Below are positions 53,914 through 62,443 of a stretch of DNA of 64,000 nt, piece after piece; the first letter of the stretch is position 1; every line of letters begins with the position of its first letter. The notes under the pieces are model-generated. The model had not been told where the DNA came from. It made no database searches and worked only from the letters and a program-made list of their open reading frames with translations. Source of the stretch: a virus. Position numbers and translations under genes: made by a program. The DNA lies in the IMG/VR virus record IMGVR_UViG_3300035698_004821, positions 29,085-93,084 of that record; one strand, given 5' to 3'.

Positions 53914-54152
53914 CAGATGAAGAGTTAGATTTCGAAGAAGTCTTATTGGCTTATTTACGCTCAAGTAAAAAAATCAAGCTTGCAAAACTAGATGTAGAAG
54001 AAGCAGGCGTCAAAACACAATACATAGTCAGGTTCGAGGTTAACAATAGCTTTCCTGGCAACCTCACTAGCCAGATATACAATCCGTTTTCTGACCTAGT
54101 GGAACAACTACAGCATAATGAACAAAGAATTATTGAAAAGCAAGAAGTTTAG
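53910..54152 (+). CDS. Small acidic protein upstream of holin, function unknown
   Basis: The 80-residue product is acidic at the N-terminus (MTDEELDFEE) with a short beta-region and a helical C-terminus containing Gln/Glu-rich heptads. No family recognised. It starts in an ATGA overlap with the discoidin fibre gene and overlaps the holin-like gene by 35 bases, which may couple the lysis genes to the fibre operon. Its role is unknown. Confidence 0.5.
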   Translation: MTDEELDFEEVLLAYLRSSKKIKLAKLDVEEAGVKTQYIVRFEVNNSFPGNLTSQIYNPFSDLVEQLQHNEQRIIEKQEV

Positions 54153-54411
54153 GGCCGCCATTCTGTCGGCAGTCTCGTCCATACTGACCTTTGGGGCAGC
54201 TAAATGGGGCTGGGATCTACAGCCACAAGAGACGATGATACTGATAGGTATCATTACTACTCCCTTTCTAATGTACATCGGGGCCGAAGGCCTGTCAGAG
54301 GTGTCCGCTAAAAAGGTAGTAGAAGAGAACAAGGTGAGAGAAGACATCACAAACAAGGTACTTGCCGAGGTCGCAAAACAAATTGAGGATAAACAAAATG
54401 AAACACAATAG
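54118..54411 (+). CDS. Probable holin
   Basis: The 97-residue product has a basic N-terminus (MNKELLKSKKF), two hydrophobic segments separated by a short polar turn (about residues 12-32 and 38-60, FRAAILSAVSSILTFGAA and TMILIGIITTPFLMYIGAEG), then a charged, helical C-terminal tail. Two membrane helices with a charged tail is a class II holin pattern. The following gene encodes a small lipoprotein, as expected for a lysis cassette in a Gram-negative host. An inner-membrane spanin is an alternative because of the coiled-coil-like tail, but two hydrophobic segments favour holin. The start overlaps the previous gene by 35 bases, and no strong ribosome binding site precedes it. Confidence 0.62.
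   Translation: MNKELLKSKKFRAAILSAVSSILTFGAAKWGWDLQPQETMILIGIITTPFLMYIGAEGLSEVSAKKVVEENKVREDITNKVLAEVAKQIEDKQNETQ
54385..54389 (+). promoter_or_regulatory. Ribosome binding site fixing the lipoprotein start
   Basis: GAGGA lies eight bases before the ATG at 54398 and supports that start over the upstream TTG at 54362. It lies within the end of the holin-like gene. Confidence 0.65.
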
Positions 54412-56267: not shown

Positions 56268-56762
56268 ATGGACATAACTGGACGAATCGAAAGTCTAGAA
56301 AGTCAGTTAGCATTCATATCACAAGAGCTAATTAGAAAACCTTCTCTGGAAGTTTTCTCCCAGTACAGTTCAGTCTGGAATCAACAATTCTGTGGTATAG
56401 ATGATAAGGTTAATGCGACGGAAGCAGCACTTAACGAGCTGCAAATTCTCTACGCTAACCTAACCCTTGATATCGATGGTGCTATACTTGATGCGAACCA
56501 AGATGTATTGTTTGAGACATTCGAAACAATAAATCAGAACTTGAAAGAATATCCCTACTCGCTTTCCTACTCAACAGGCTCAGATTTAACCGGAATACGG
56601 TACACTCTAAGCGAGACAGGATACATCCAAAAAAGTCTGGACTACGATCTCTCCGGACTTCTAACTAAAGTCAGCATAGCTGGCAATTCATTACTCTCTG
56701 TCACCCTCTCTAAGAACTTCCTGTACACTGGAGAGGACATGACAGGAGTATATTATTCATAA
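56268..56762 (+). CDS. Coiled-coil tail adaptor, paralogue of the 62156 gene
   Basis: The 164-residue product begins MDITGRIESLESQLAFISQ and is helical over the first 65 residues. That part aligns without gaps to the 95-residue protein at 62156-62443, with about 28 identical residues of 65 by hand count, including WNQQ and LYxNL. The remaining 100 residues are beta-rich, end TGVYYS and are not shared apart from a similar TGVY end. It lies directly before a LamG-type fibre gene. A trimerising or attachment adaptor for the fibre that follows is a reasonable inference. Confidence 0.58.
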   Translation: MDITGRIESLESQLAFISQELIRKPSLEVFSQYSSVWNQQFCGIDDKVNATEAALNELQILYANLTLDIDGAILDANQDVLFETFETINQNLKEYPYSLSYSTGSDLTGIRYTLSETGYIQKSLDYDLSGLLTKVSIAGNSLLSVTLSKNFLYTGEDMTGVYYS

Positions 56763-56763
56763 T

Positions 56764-57969
56764 ATGGCCTACAGAGACGAGATCACGGGTATAAATGCGG
56801 ATCATTTATGGCGTTTTGATGGAGACGCCAATGATACCATTGGCTTTACTACTGGTACCGCCTCATCCATAACCTACACTACTCCTGCTTTGTGTGAAGA
56901 CTCTACTAATGCAGCCCAATCTAATGATGTTGGAGATAGAATAGCTTTTCCAGATGCTTCGGATATTAATAGTTCTCTCTCAAACAAGGCCGTAGGTGGA
57001 TGGTTGAGACTCACTGAGATACAACTTCCTCCCAAGTCTATATACAGAGAAGGAACAACCACACAGCAGTTCAACTTTGTTGTTTGGTCTGGTAATATAC
57101 TTATGCTAGAAATCGTAGATAGTAGTTCTGTTTACCAGGCCTTCTCAAATGTGGCACTACAGCCAGATAGGACTTACCATATATTTGGTAGGGTAACAGG
57201 TGATGGTGACTTTGCCCTTTATATAGATGGTGTTAAGCAAGCTATTACTCAACCAACCGATGGTTTGTTTGGGTCAAGCACTTTTGATTCGGGTACCCCT
57301 ATAGAATTTGGAGACCCTTCGGGTAGTACAGAAGTGGGTAATGCACCAGTGTTGCTTAACTGTCCAGTTAATGGTTATTGGGCATTCTGGTGTACATTCA
57401 GTAATTCAGATGTGCCTAATGACACCACAATTAGAGAAAAACTGTTTGAAAAAGGGGCCCTACCTGAGTCTACGGTCACTAATCAGACTCAGCTTGATGC
57501 ATTGGCAGACACGGTTAGAGGAAACACCCCTTTAGCTATCCGAGTGGATGTCGCTGGTGACTTATCTCTATCCGCAGATAACGTAACTTTTGATCCGTTA
57601 TGCTCAATACATGTGCAATACGCAGGAACTGGCACTCTTACCTGGACTAATACTAATGGATCTGATGCTAGTATAGGCTCTACAACAGACGATGGTACTA
57701 TCACTTTTGTAAATCCCGCAACGCTTACTACAGAGCCATTAATTACTGGCTCAGAAGTGAGATATTTCATTGCCGGAACTACAGGAGAAATCAACGGAGT
57801 AGAGAGTTCCAGCACGTCCTTCTCATCATCAGTGGATGTTAGTTCTGTTGATGTTGTTATACATGCAGTGGATTATGTTTACATTAGGGTAAAGAATATT
57901 GACATGACTCAAGGTAATGTGACTTTACCTGTGTCCCAGAGAATAGACCGTAACTACAATAATCCATAA
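56764..57969 (+). CDS. LamG-like tail fibre protein with RNYNNP end
   Basis: The 401-residue product starts MAYRDEITG. Residues about 12-220 form a LamG/concanavalin-like sandwich (HLWRFDGDANDT, GGWLRLTEI, DRTYHIFGRVTGDGDFALYI, DGVKQ). Residues about 235-400 hold a second beta domain with NTPLAIRVDVAGDLSLSADN. The last ten residues are QRIDRNYNNP, a motif also ending the next two proteins. The whole protein is similar to the C-terminal 410 residues of the following protein. It is probably a receptor-binding or decorating fibre component. It starts one base after the previous stop and ends in a TAATG overlap. Confidence 0.62.
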   Translation: MAYRDEITGINADHLWRFDGDANDTIGFTTGTASSITYTTPALCEDSTNAAQSNDVGDRIAFPDASDINSSLSNKAVGGWLRLTEIQLPPKSIYREGTTTQQFNFVVWSGNILMLEIVDSSSVYQAFSNVALQPDRTYHIFGRVTGDGDFALYIDGVKQAITQPTDGLFGSSTFDSGTPIEFGDPSGSTEVGNAPVLLNCPVNGYWAFWCTFSNSDVPNDTTIREKLFEKGALPESTVTNQTQLDALADTVRGNTPLAIRVDVAGDLSLSADNVTFDPLCSIHVQYAGTGTLTWTNTNGSDASIGSTTDDGTITFVNPATLTTEPLITGSEVRYFIAGTTGEINGVESSSTSFSSSVDVSSVDVVIHAVDYVYIRVKNIDMTQGNVTLPVSQRIDRNYNNP

Positions 57970-60185
57970 TGGCTATTACCTTTATAGATAGTAACACCCA
58001 AGATTCGGCGGCCGGCTTATCTCTTACGTTTGCCATTCCAGGTGGGGCTACCACCGATGATCTTATACTCGTCTTTGTTAAGCAATGCGAAAACACTACA
58101 CAACGTATTTGGGATGATGATGGTGGCGGCGGAAGAGGGTATACTAGACTAGACTACAATAGAACTACAGCCGATCGAGATCAAGAGACAGCTATCTATT
58201 ACAAAATACACTCTGGTACTGAAACAAACCCTACATTTACCTGGGCTTCTGGTATTACTGCAGAGCCTATGTCAGGCTCTATGCTGATATATCGAGGCAC
58301 GTATACGATTACACCTATATCTGCTTTTGCTTACGCAAATAATACGAATGACGCTAACCCACCTAATCCTTCTGTTTCGGTAGGGTTTACTAGCTCGGCT
58401 ATGGTAGTGTTTCACGCGGCTACTCATGATGATATTTCAGCAGTGGCCGCTCCTACTGGATATGCACTTAGAACGCAAGTGTGGAACGGCATCGACGACG
58501 ACCATAGAAACCATTTTACGGCTGATTTACTATCAGGTCTTTCAATAGGTGTAAACACACCTCCAGATTGGCAACACACTGTCTTAAATAATACCCCTGA
58601 GTATCATACATATTCAATAGTACTTCAAATACCCATACTTATTAGCATAGAAGTTTTCCCTGAGGGGTTTAACTATGGTGATTCTGTGGTTATCGAAGGT
58701 TTCGGCTTTGAAGCCACAAAAGGCACAGGAAAAGTAGAGCTTTGGTCGGATATCTCTGGAACAATTAAAACAACACAGACCACAACTGCTTGGGCTGATG
58801 ATGAGATTACTTTTACAGCTACACAAGGTAGTCTGAATAACAATGCTTTAATTTACATAGTCGTCACCAATGATAACGGAGACCCTAGTGGTCCAGTTAT
58901 TAGTTCGGCAGGTCTATTAGATTATAGTAGCATTATATTGGCTAATAACCCTGATCACTGGTGGGTTCTTGAGGAGGATTATGACGACACAGGGGGTTGG
59001 GCGACCACAAGTAATCTCACGTCCATTCAAGAAGGCGACGGGGGCGCCTTCGTTTCAGAATCTATGTCAGAGGGCACTACAGGGTGTTGGCAAGCTACTA
59101 ATGATAGAAGAGCATGTGCTAACACAACTGCAATGAATGCGTCTACCACTACTGATAGGTTGATGGGCGGATGGATACGCCTAGGAGAAATCTTTCAAGG
59201 ATTAACATGTATTTATGAAGAAGGCGGCAGTGTCAACAACATAGCGTTCTTTGTGGGTATGGGCAACAGACTTGTTGCTCAACTCGCGGATACCAATGAC
59301 GATAATGTGCAAGCCTTTTCTAATATGTCTTTAGAGCCTAACAGAACATACCATATTCTTTTTAGGTTTTCATATACAGAAAGTAATAAACAGTTTCAGC
59401 TTTACGTAGATGGGGTGTTACAGGAAGTAACCAGTGGTAATCCCCTAACCTCGTCGGATCTTGACGCCCATAATGCAAACATTAGTTTCGGAGGTCCAGG
59501 TGATAACTTAGAGGTGGCCGGCACTGATGTGTTATTTCTAACTGCAACCGATGCTAAATACAGCAACTGGGTAACTTGGAGTAGAGCCGTACTTCAACCG
59601 GATATAATTAAGCTTTTTAAGAGAGGAGCTGTACCTGATGTTACAATAACAACGGATATCCAAGCTAATATGCAGACAGGTATAGACGCCTTAGCGTCTA
59701 CTTCTCTATCTAACACCCCTTTATCTATCCGAGTTGAAAACTATACCGGAGCTGGGGATCTCAGTTTAGAAGCAGATGGGGTCATCTTTGATCCTCTCAC
59801 ATCAATCTATTTAGAGTGGAGAGGAGCAGGTATTCTTAACTGGACTAACTTGAATGGGTCTAATTTAATAGCTGATAAAGTGTATACACCCTTAAGCGGG
59901 ACAGTTAATATTATCAATCCTGCATCACTTACTTTACTGGGTGTAGTCTCAGGATCAGAAGTTAGGATGTATACAGAAGGAGCCACTGGTGAATTGTTTG
60001 GAATAGAGAGCACTAATGGTGAAGACAATCCCACCTATCAGTATCAAGAAACAGGTAATATTGATATTGTTATACACAACATTTATTACCAGTACTTTAG
60101 GATAGATGGGTACGCTATTACGGGAGGTGACGTAATCCTACCTGTATCTCAGATTTTTGATAGAAATTACACTAACCCTACATAG
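57969..60185 (+). CDS. Tail fibre protein with TIG-like and LamG-like domains
   Basis: The 738-residue product has three parts. Residues about 1-220 are a beta domain of a kind I associate with marine phage fibres (LILVFVKQ, FTWASGI, PTGYAL). Residues about 227-317 look like an IPT/TIG-type Ig fold (FNYGDSVVIEGFGFEA, then IYIVVTNDNG). Residues about 328-738 are a divergent copy of the preceding gene, from DHWWVLEEDYDDTGGW through GGWIRLGEI and RTYHILFRFSY to the end QIFDRNYTNPT. Gene duplication with addition of N-terminal domains is the simplest explanation. The DNA looks AT-rich here. The stop (TAG) is followed by the only sizeable intergenic gap of the window. Confidence 0.63.
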   Translation: MAITFIDSNTQDSAAGLSLTFAIPGGATTDDLILVFVKQCENTTQRIWDDDGGGGRGYTRLDYNRTTADRDQETAIYYKIHSGTETNPTFTWASGITAEPMSGSMLIYRGTYTITPISAFAYANNTNDANPPNPSVSVGFTSSAMVVFHAATHDDISAVAAPTGYALRTQVWNGIDDDHRNHFTADLLSGLSIGVNTPPDWQHTVLNNTPEYHTYSIVLQIPILISIEVFPEGFNYGDSVVIEGFGFEATKGTGKVELWSDISGTIKTTQTTTAWADDEITFTATQGSLNNNALIYIVVTNDNGDPSGPVISSAGLLDYSSIILANNPDHWWVLEEDYDDTGGWATTSNLTSIQEGDGGAFVSESMSEGTTGCWQATNDRRACANTTAMNASTTTDRLMGGWIRLGEIFQGLTCIYEEGGSVNNIAFFVGMGNRLVAQLADTNDDNVQAFSNMSLEPNRTYHILFRFSYTESNKQFQLYVDGVLQEVTSGNPLTSSDLDAHNANISFGGPGDNLEVAGTDVLFLTATDAKYSNWVTWSRAVLQPDIIKLFKRGAVPDVTITTDIQANMQTGIDALASTSLSNTPLSIRVENYTGAGDLSLEADGVIFDPLTSIYLEWRGAGILNWTNLNGSNLIADKVYTPLSGTVNIINPASLTLLGVVSGSEVRMYTEGATGELFGIESTNGEDNPTYQYQETGNIDIVIHNIYYQYFRIDGYAITGGDVILPVSQIFDRNYTNPT

Positions 60186-60270
60186 TGAATAATAGTATAT
60201 CTGGTACGCAAAATAAGTATAAACGCTGCGGCGTCAGAAATTAAAACAGATAAAGGTATAAAGAAAGAAC
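60186..60270. other. Only notable intergenic region; possible promoter
   Basis: This 85-base gap separates the long coupled block from the last fibre genes. It is AT-rich and contains GTATAAAC at 60217-60224 and GTATAAAG at 60256-60263, which vaguely resemble T4-type late promoter elements (TATAAATA). No convincing inverted repeat or T-run terminator is visible. The purine-rich stretch just before the ATG at 60271 may serve as ribosome binding site. A promoter here is possible but weakly supported. Confidence 0.3.
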
Positions 60271-61626
60271 ATGGTAACAGTAACAGACCCTGACCTCTTA
60301 GTGGACCCAACAGATATTGTAGTTGATACAGACGCTAAGACAATTCAAATTTTGACAGGCAGTGCCGTAGATAATGCTGGCGCCACTGGTGGGGTAACGG
60401 GTCAAGCTCTTTACTCTTTCCTAAAAGAAGAGTGGAAGACGAACTCGACTTATATTAGGTTTCCCTTCCCAATGGAAGCTATTACTCCTGAACAGTTCGA
60501 GTTTATTAACGGGTGGGCACCTGCTGATGACTCAACTAGAAAGTTGATTCGTACAGCTGGCTGGGCGGAAAGATCCCTCGCTGGTGTAATCGAAAGACAG
60601 TACACAGGTATTGTTTCTCTTGGCAATCTCGACATCGATGACCAACCTTACTCTAGGTTCGGTAATCTAGGAGACTTTGATTTCACCTATCCTGGACCTA
60701 TTAATGAGGCCCTGCAGATCTTTGGGGATGCGAGCAATGGCAACTTTGACTACTCAGCTGGTACAGCTCTAACCCTATTCTGTAGAGAGCAGGGCAAGAC
60801 GTACTCTACGTCAAACAACACTGCCATTGGTGCTACCACGCTAACGTACATTACGTATCGTTTCCCGTTGACTAATGCTGTTGATCTTAACATCACACAA
60901 ACTGATGCTATCATCGCAACTGGCGCACCGTACACGACGATTACTATTGAGTACTTCGGTACTGACCAGCTTTACGACGTTGATGATGAGGGTATCAATG
61001 AAGCTTACCGTTACATCATCACAGATGGCTTAGGTACTTCAACTACTGCTCAGATCTATGAGAAGATCCAATATGAGCTAAGGCAAGCCACAGACATTGA
61101 TAATGGTGGAGGTACTGTTACCGGTCGTGTTGCTGACAGCCTACTAAACTTCGTTGGTTCTACACTCGTTGGTGAAGACGGCGTGTTTATTACTGGCCTT
61201 AACAGTAACTTTTTGAACTCTGTTGACTTCTATGACTTCACAGGTATCGTAAGACGCTACCCGTTTGTCTCAGCTGGTAACATTAACTTTGGAGCCTTCG
61301 CAGGTTCTGGTGACTTCCGCTGGTGGGCTTTCTATGACAGTGTGCCAGCTGGTGACTATGGAACTAGTACCGGTGTTATCGTGCAAGATAGTAATGGTGT
61401 AGCACTTAGTGGTATCTTTGAGGGTGTCGCTCGTAGTTTTGACTACGCCTATGACTCTAATATACAGGGTGGACGAACCCAGGGTACAGACGCAGATGTT
61501 ACCCTTGTGGGTATTGGTCTGACCGGTGGTCAGTTCGCTTCTGTTGGGTTCACCATCACCCGAAGTCAGGGCATCTCTGTCCTTCTTGCTCCTGCACAGG
61601 AACGTAACTACACCAACCCAGCCTAA
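60271..61626 (+). CDS. Marine-phage-type tail/virion protein with RNYTNP end
   Basis: The 451-residue product resembles a protein family I associate with marine phages of several morphotypes. It starts TDPDLL...PTDIVVDTDAKTIQI and carries TGQALYSFLKEEWK and IRFPFPMEAITPEQFEFING near residues 45-90. Such proteins are usually annotated as virion or tail fibre components, and their function is unknown. The rest is beta-rich with repeats of Gly/Asp-rich turns (for example DTDNG-like loops near residue 270). It ends AQERNYTNPA, the same closing motif as the two preceding fibre proteins. It starts after the 85-base gap and may be transcribed from there. Confidence 0.62.
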   Translation: MVTVTDPDLLVDPTDIVVDTDAKTIQILTGSAVDNAGATGGVTGQALYSFLKEEWKTNSTYIRFPFPMEAITPEQFEFINGWAPADDSTRKLIRTAGWAERSLAGVIERQYTGIVSLGNLDIDDQPYSRFGNLGDFDFTYPGPINEALQIFGDASNGNFDYSAGTALTLFCREQGKTYSTSNNTAIGATTLTYITYRFPLTNAVDLNITQTDAIIATGAPYTTITIEYFGTDQLYDVDDEGINEAYRYIITDGLGTSTTAQIYEKIQYELRQATDIDNGGGTVTGRVADSLLNFVGSTLVGEDGVFITGLNSNFLNSVDFYDFTGIVRRYPFVSAGNINFGAFAGSGDFRWWAFYDSVPAGDYGTSTGVIVQDSNGVALSGIFEGVARSFDYAYDSNIQGGRTQGTDADVTLVGIGLTGGQFASVGFTITRSQGISVLLAPAQERNYTNPA

Positions 61627-61649: not shown

Positions 61650-61655
61650 TTTTTG

Positions 61656-62153
61656 ATGTTAACTTTTGATGGCATTAACAGGTTAATCATAATAGTTCAA
61701 GGTGTAACTGACGTGAACGTAAAGGCAGACGTCTATTCTTCTTGGAAAAAGTGGGTCATGATTGATGACAATTCTAAGTTTTTACCAGCTATTAGAACTA
61801 TAGGGGGAGACCCTGCAGGGGATGGTTTTGCTGGTGACCTCTACTTCATGCAAAACAATTGGAGGGTACAGGTAGATGAGTTTGTGAATCTAAACGGAAT
61901 TCTTTACTCAGATGACTTTGATTCCCCCTACATCGTTGGCGCGGGTGGTGGCGTTGTAGCTTCTGTTTCTAACCTAGCTTTCGCAGTGGCAACGGCCGCT
62001 GCAGTAGTTGAGGCTCCAACGGTAGAAGAAATTGGAGACGAGGTAACAATAAGACTCCAAGTCATCCTAGACGCCCTAGAAGGCGTCGCCCAAGAAACAA
62101 CCGCTGCTGCTGCTTTGCGTTCCGCTAAGCTAGCCGCCGCACTGAGTGCATAA
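61656..62153 (+). CDS. Marine-phage-type structural protein
   Basis: The 165-residue product starts MLTFDGINRLIIIVQGVTDV and continues DVYSSWKKWVMIDDNSKFLP and GGDPAGDGF, a pattern I recognise from small structural proteins of marine phages, often next to the family of the preceding gene. The first 110 residues are beta-rich; the last 50 are Ala/Glu-rich and helical. ATG at 61656, with the AGAGGTGA site, is preferred over TTG at 61653. The function is unknown; co-occurrence with the upstream protein suggests that they work as a pair on the tail or capsid surface. Confidence 0.62.
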   Translation: MLTFDGINRLIIIVQGVTDVNVKADVYSSWKKWVMIDDNSKFLPAIRTIGGDPAGDGFAGDLYFMQNNWRVQVDEFVNLNGILYSDDFDSPYIVGAGGGVVASVSNLAFAVATAAAVVEAPTVEEIGDEVTIRLQVILDALEGVAQETTAAAALRSAKLAAALSA

Positions 62154-62155
62154 TC

Positions 62156-62443
62156 ATGACATTATCCGGAAGAGTAGACACACTTGAAAATCAAGTCACG
62201 TTCATAACTCAAGATCTTATTCAAAAGATAGATGTATCTACGTCGGCGACTAATAGTACGTCATGGAATCAGCAGATGGATGCTTTTGAGGATACTGTTA
62301 ATGTTCTCTCTGCCCAACTACATACTCTGCAGTCACTTTACACTAACCTTTACATGAGTGTACAGTCTCATTACTACGAGTTCACTGGCCACCGTGACTC
62401 AGCAGTCACTGGAGTGACACCAGTACACACTGGCGTGTACTAA
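62156..62443 (+). CDS. Coiled-coil tail adaptor, paralogue of the 56268 gene
   Basis: The 95-residue product begins MTLSGRVDTLENQVTFITQ. It aligns without gaps to the first 65 residues of the protein at 56268-56762 (about 28 identities by hand count, including WNQQ and LYTNL). The C-terminal 30 residues are polar and end HTGVY. It lies directly before a long tail fibre gene, as its paralogue lies before a LamG fibre gene. An attachment or trimerisation adaptor role is inferred. Confidence 0.58.
   Translation: MTLSGRVDTLENQVTFITQDLIQKIDVSTSATNSTSWNQQMDAFEDTVNVLSAQLHTLQSLYTNLYMSVQSHYYEFTGHRDSAVTGVTPVHTGVY

Follow-up and report, generated by a model that had tools for sequence, protein, structure and literature searches.

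The window analysed here, a 64,000-nt stretch spanning bases 29085–93084 of a 93-kb linear virus record (IMG/VR IMGVR_UViG_3300035698_004821), carries on its plus strand three genes whose products end in nearly the same short peptide, followed by a neighbour that lacks it. The first product, protein A (56764–57969, 401 aa), combines a LamG/ConA-like N-terminal part with a constant C-terminal β domain (residues about 304–401, 57673–57966, supported by AlphaFold2 pLDDT and a cluster of 130 homologues) and closes with the tag DRNYNNP (57946–57966). Protein B (57969–60185, 738 aa) has an extra N-terminal part, a LamG-like domain, a C-terminal domain of the same type as that of A, and the tag DRNYTNPT (60159–60182). 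We call A and B gp54-like and the third protein (60271–61626, 451 aa) gp53-like, after their relatives in the marine Synechococcus phage Syn5; the latter, a gp53 homologue by tblastn, has an N-terminal domain related to gp55 (60289–60525; hhalign, limits approximate), a C-terminal β-sandwich (residues about 326–451, 61246–61623, from the AlphaFold2 model) and the tag ERNYTNPA (61600–61623). The untagged neighbour (61653–62153) is a gp55-like protein of 166 aa from a TTG start, or of 165 aa from the ATG at 61656.

The original prediction had read the three endings, at 57969, 60185 and 61626, correctly, and had recognised A and B as paralogues, which share 38% identity across 428 aa. Its statement that the codons differ among the three tags holds in part, but not at every residue: protein A uses CGT AAC TAC AAT AAT CCA, protein B uses AGA AAT TAC ACT AAC CCT ACA, and the gp53-like protein uses CGT AAC TAC ACC AAC CCA GCC. 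BLASTP found no significant similarity of the gp53-like protein to A or B. No other ORF of at least 80 aa in the window or the rest of the 93-kb record ends in such a tag, so the shared ending is more than chance. Against Pfam, protein B matches Laminin_G_3 (E = 3e-6, 27.9 bits) just over the cut-off of 27.6 bits and protein A falls under that cut-off (E = 8e-5, 23.2 bits); structure comparison gives ConA/LamG fold matches for the N-terminal part of A. Searches with the gp53-like and gp55-like proteins matched no family in Pfam, PHROGs or NCBIfam.

The virus record also encodes a terminase, a portal, a major head protein and a Baseplate_J protein, and because of the last of these the phage is probably contractile-tailed. 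Upstream in the window, about 32 kb (17435–49700) encodes predicted structural proteins of very large size (750–1625 aa in many cases), a region that we predict to be an unusually large appendage or baseplate region; the three of these proteins that were checked against Pfam gave no match. Just ahead of the tagged genes, 54118–54411 encodes a 97-aa protein with a hydrophobic stretch and a holin-like look.

The closest characterized relatives of the tagged proteins are encoded by Syn5. Along its full length, the 451-aa protein is homologous to Syn5 gp53 (tblastn, 39% identity, 100% of the query, E = 2e-74); S-TIP28, Maribacter phage Panino, ctPCi537 and Rctr197k encode other relatives. Residues 311–401 of protein A match the C terminus of Syn5 gp54 (42% identity, E = 2e-3), the C-terminal 91 residues of Syn5 gp54 are matched by both A and B, and a profile HMM of the gp54 C-terminal domain built without its tail still finds Syn5 gp54 (E = 1e-21). 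The N-terminal parts of A and B are not homologous to that of Syn5 gp54: they fall into separate clusters and have a LamG fold in the window. The genes of the module are of a known but barely studied kind, the Syn5 horn genes. Both gp53 and gp54 have reportedly been localised by immuno-electron microscopy to the Syn5 horn opposite the tail (Raytcheva et al., 2014), and we take them to be the proteins of this head appendage. To our knowledge, no assembly rule has been described for the Syn5 horn, and few relatives of it are known. Since the Syn5 relatives are horn proteins, the earlier label of ‘tail proteins’ is probably wrong in the strict sense.

In addition to the horn, Syn5 has knob-like capsid proteins (PMC10575957). 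Its gp55 and gp58 have been tentatively assigned to density on the capsid surface, and the assignment of gp55 is disputed (PMC9207676). The laboratory host of Syn5 is Synechococcus WH8109. Editing of the phage genome by homologous recombination has been described (PMC8776855).

Genes for gp53-like, gp54-like and small gp55-like proteins lie clustered in Syn5, S-TIP28, Panino, ctPCi537 and Rctr197k, and the gp55-like protein of the window matches the Rctr197k gene that adjoins its gp54. Across viral and genome collections, we found the gp53–gp54–gp55 module at about 206 viral loci, on records ranging from short contigs to 330 kb and from sources as different as phages of Synechococcus and Maribacter and contigs binned with Patescibacteria; the gp55 family HMM detects a member at 185 of these loci. 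The contigs of three gp53-like genes (loci L192, L197 and L208), one of them a 1.08-Mb chromosome record, are binned as Daviesbacteria and Woesebacteria, which suggests prophages or phages of Patescibacteria that carry the module. At another locus (L161:6001–7425), the gp53 frame runs on in frame beyond an internal TAG codon (NDA*GTPITGTISA), which may reflect stop-codon reassignment, a pseudogene or a sequencing error.

Like the gp53-like gene of the window, Syn5 gp53 adjoins gp54-like and gp55-like genes; its product ends ERNYSNP. Syn5 gp54 shares with A and B a C-terminal domain that spans about 91 aa (42% identity) and ends DRQYNNPV, but has a long N-terminal part that is not LamG-like. 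Syn5 has one gp54 gene, downstream of gp53, whereas the window has two, upstream of it. Syn5 gp55, like that of the window, is the third conserved member of the module; it belongs to a family that resembles the N-terminal domain of gp53 and, unlike gp53 and gp54, it has no tag. The phages themselves differ, Syn5 being a T7-like podovirus and the phage of the window, with its Baseplate_J protein, probably having a contractile tail. Panino CDS0098–0100 resembles the window in having one gp53-like and two gp54-like proteins, one of LamG type and one with an extra N terminus, and all three end in RQYxN; its tails (RQYQNA, RQYENN and RQYLNS), genome and gene order are different.

How exclusive is the tag to these two families? 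Defined as a C-terminal [DE]-R-x-[YF] plus 1–5 residues, it is present in 143 of the 168 distinct gp53-like proteins and 126 of the 156 distinct gp54-like proteins at the 206 loci. Only 14 of the 3142 remaining ORFs of 100 aa or longer carry it, and about 5 of these look like gp54-like proteins overlooked by the profile. The original prediction had proposed looking for such enrichment, and it is clearly present, confined to two families. In the complete genomes of Syn5 and ctPCi537, gp53 and gp54 are the sole tagged ORFs, and in Panino, over the regions covered, the tag is limited to the gp53-like protein and the two gp54-like ones. Screening all viral contigs without bias for one codon version of RNYTNP gave 7 occurrences, 2 of them C-terminal (one gp53-like and one gp54-like protein) and the remaining 5 internal to other proteins; a second scan that included the stop codon returned three proteins of the gp53 type, along with two short frames that were spurious. 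A literature search, outside which most subscription papers lay, turned up no account of the shared tag or of its matched evolution.

In gp54, the domain that bears the tag is constant and the parts in front of it are interchangeable: the C-terminal domains form a single sequence cluster of 130 proteins and the front parts form at least ten. In gp53, the gp55 family profile matches the N-terminal region (hhalign probability 86%, E = 4.6e-6, against E ≥ 0.35 for the remaining gp55 pairings), so that the gp55-like protein and the gp53 N-terminal domain appear to be homologous. An hhalign match between the N-terminal and middle parts of gp53 was discarded as an artefact of overlapping ranges.

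Whether the two tagged domains share an ancestor bears directly on what the tag means, because a common origin could explain it as simple inheritance. In the AlphaFold2 models, the gp53-like protein has a mean pLDDT of 94, with 86 for the tail block; in protein A, residues 311–400 reach 88–98 and form seven main strands, the tail block has 92 and the front part is poor. The two modelled C-terminal domains have identical strand order, and DSSP assigns a bridge to the acidic residue preceding the Arg in both, and in gp53 also to the residue ahead of it. Among predicted structures of viral proteins, the gp53 model fits best to a Syn5 structural protein of 622 aa, which is the length of gp54 (Foldseek, E = 1e-7), with low TM-scores (0.27/0.22) and with the proviso that multi-domain β proteins match each other easily. 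A fold search of the PDB with gp53 gave only generic β-sandwich and CBM20 matches, and no relative by sequence was found among solved structures. Profiles of the gp53 and gp54 C-terminal domains match significantly with the tail included (E of 5e-5 to 2e-4); without it, hhalign gives P of 0.02–0.09, no better than controls. The shared strand order and the Syn5 gp54 fold match make it likely, at the level of models, that the two domains descend from one ancestor and that the tail forms their last element. The original description of the tagged proteins as unrelated therefore agrees with the lack of detectable sequence similarity outside the tail, but not with the models; by the same token, the homology of the C-terminal domains that it had named as grounds for abandoning the idea of a tag finds no significant support in tail-less profiles and some in the shared strand order.

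On the main rival reading, one ancestral β-sandwich was inherited by both families and the tail is an intramolecular cap without a partner; its Tyr and Arg would pack against the last strand, and its form would drift by lineage. The strand order, the similar DSSP bridges, the Syn5 gp54 fold match and the prediction of an ordered tail within the monomer all fit this reading. Against it, the domains show no significant sequence similarity beyond the tail, which alone is conserved between the families, and a cap offers no reason for the tails of two genes to change in length, Arg content and truncation in concert. We consider it rather unlikely; the evidence on the concerted change is as follows.

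First, variant tails are matched between the proteins of a genome in ctPCi537 (DRAYIV/DRAYLV), Panino (RQY in all three proteins), an Arg-less clade (DPSYVV/DPSYVD) and locus L191 (ELTYQNPI/DLTYKNP); at L184, both genes stop at the Tyr codon position, leaving DLA and DLP. Among 136 distinct gp53–gp54 pairs, tail class agrees in 120 and the presence of Arg in 130.

Second, because related phages share states, we tested the correlation on a tree of gp53 sequences from which the tail had been removed. Pagel tests reject independence for long versus short tail, Arg, one versus two residues and second-position Asn (each p ~1e-4 to 5e-4), and simulated independent evolution reached the observed value in 0 of 60 and 0 of 59 runs. 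Parsimony places 4 changes of long/short tail, 4 of Arg and 8 of one/two residues in gp53; independent contrasts are mirrored in gp54 in 2 of 4, 3 of 4 and about 2.5 of 7, with none or almost none opposite and the rest unchanged. Since the independent events are few and some tip-level tail changes are unmirrored in the partner protein, the evidence from these sequences that tail matching exceeds the expectation from shared ancestry under a simple model is good but not overwhelming.

Third, the resemblance is not a product of recent copying between neighbours. Recent gene conversion, or convergent drift, might have been expected from adjacent genes with similar 3′ ends, yet the shared tail residues use the same codon 239 times against 242.5 expected, no more than codon usage predicts, which excludes recent conversion; the upstream sequences are unrelated and the match holds across 136 distinct pairs. 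We regard this origin as highly improbable.

A possible structural correlate of the Arg was also considered. The position of gp53 Asp395 is acidic in 92% of R-bearing and 26% of R-less proteins, a contrast contributed mostly by one clade, and an Arg–acid salt bridge was accordingly set aside as an explanation and kept as a lead only.

The concerted tails suggest that gp53 and gp54 attach to the virion at a common position. We propose, with a probability of roughly 0.57, that the module encodes one appendage in which gp53 and interchangeable gp54 proteins dock through tagged C-terminal assembly domains at equivalent sites. The tag would be the last element of a C-terminal β-sandwich assembly domain in both families; gp53 would join a gp55-like N-terminal domain, its link to the capsid, to one such domain, and gp54 would join an exchangeable N-terminal tip (for example, LamG), which it displays, to another. 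The two C-terminal domains would dock at equivalent sites in the same appendage, sharing an acceptor or each other, with the tail at the subunit interface, and this shared docking would keep the tails matched within a genome. We infer four elements of this proposal: the homology of the C-terminal domains, the interface position of the tail, the shared acceptor and a horn-like appendage in the phage of the window. AlphaFold orders the tail within the monomer, which fits a purely intramolecular role too. The original suggestion of a shared functional tag is borne out in part, as an enriched C-terminal signature that is correlated between families, with docking as the conditional part.

As for partners, the coiled-coil proteins that had been suggested fare poorly. 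Their genes, at 56268–56762 and 62156–62443, encode coiled-coil-like paralogues (41% identity over 69 aa) that flank the horn module. We rejected them as the common partner, which is unsupported because only one locus outside the window (L044) holds a match. The other suggested partner, the protein at 61656, emerges in modified form. It is the 166-aa gp55-like protein starting at 61653, whose family has members at 185 of about 206 loci and appears related to the N-terminal domain of gp53; as a candidate component it is preferable to the coiled-coil proteins.

The reader of the tag might instead lie outside the virion, with the C-terminal peptide recognised by an assembly chaperone, a protease or a host factor. 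Such a signal would suit a short tag at the extreme C terminus that is restricted to two adjacent families and varies in concert. A host reader is argued against by the spread of the tag over phages from very different sources (Synechococcus, Maribacter and Patescibacteria bins), an unsystematic look recognised no extra conserved gene beside the pair other than gp55, and the tail is predicted to be folded rather than exposed; we judge recognition of this kind improbable.

The docking proposal can be carried a step further, more tentatively. The tag may be a lineage-specific docking code, a C-terminal plug such that the outer N-terminal part of gp54, at the tip of a capsid appendage, could be swapped if its tail matched that of the resident gp53 and the common socket; we hold this to be a possibility with the odds against it. 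If true, horn-type appendages would be widespread among phages, beyond Syn5.

For the Syn5 horn, a shared tag that changes in concert is a direct handle on how its two proteins assemble. The presence of the module at roughly 200 loci suggests that many phages, some of them binned with Patescibacteria, carry horn-type appendages whose tips can be exchanged, and the tag itself provides a simple annotation rule for genes that are currently named hypothetical.
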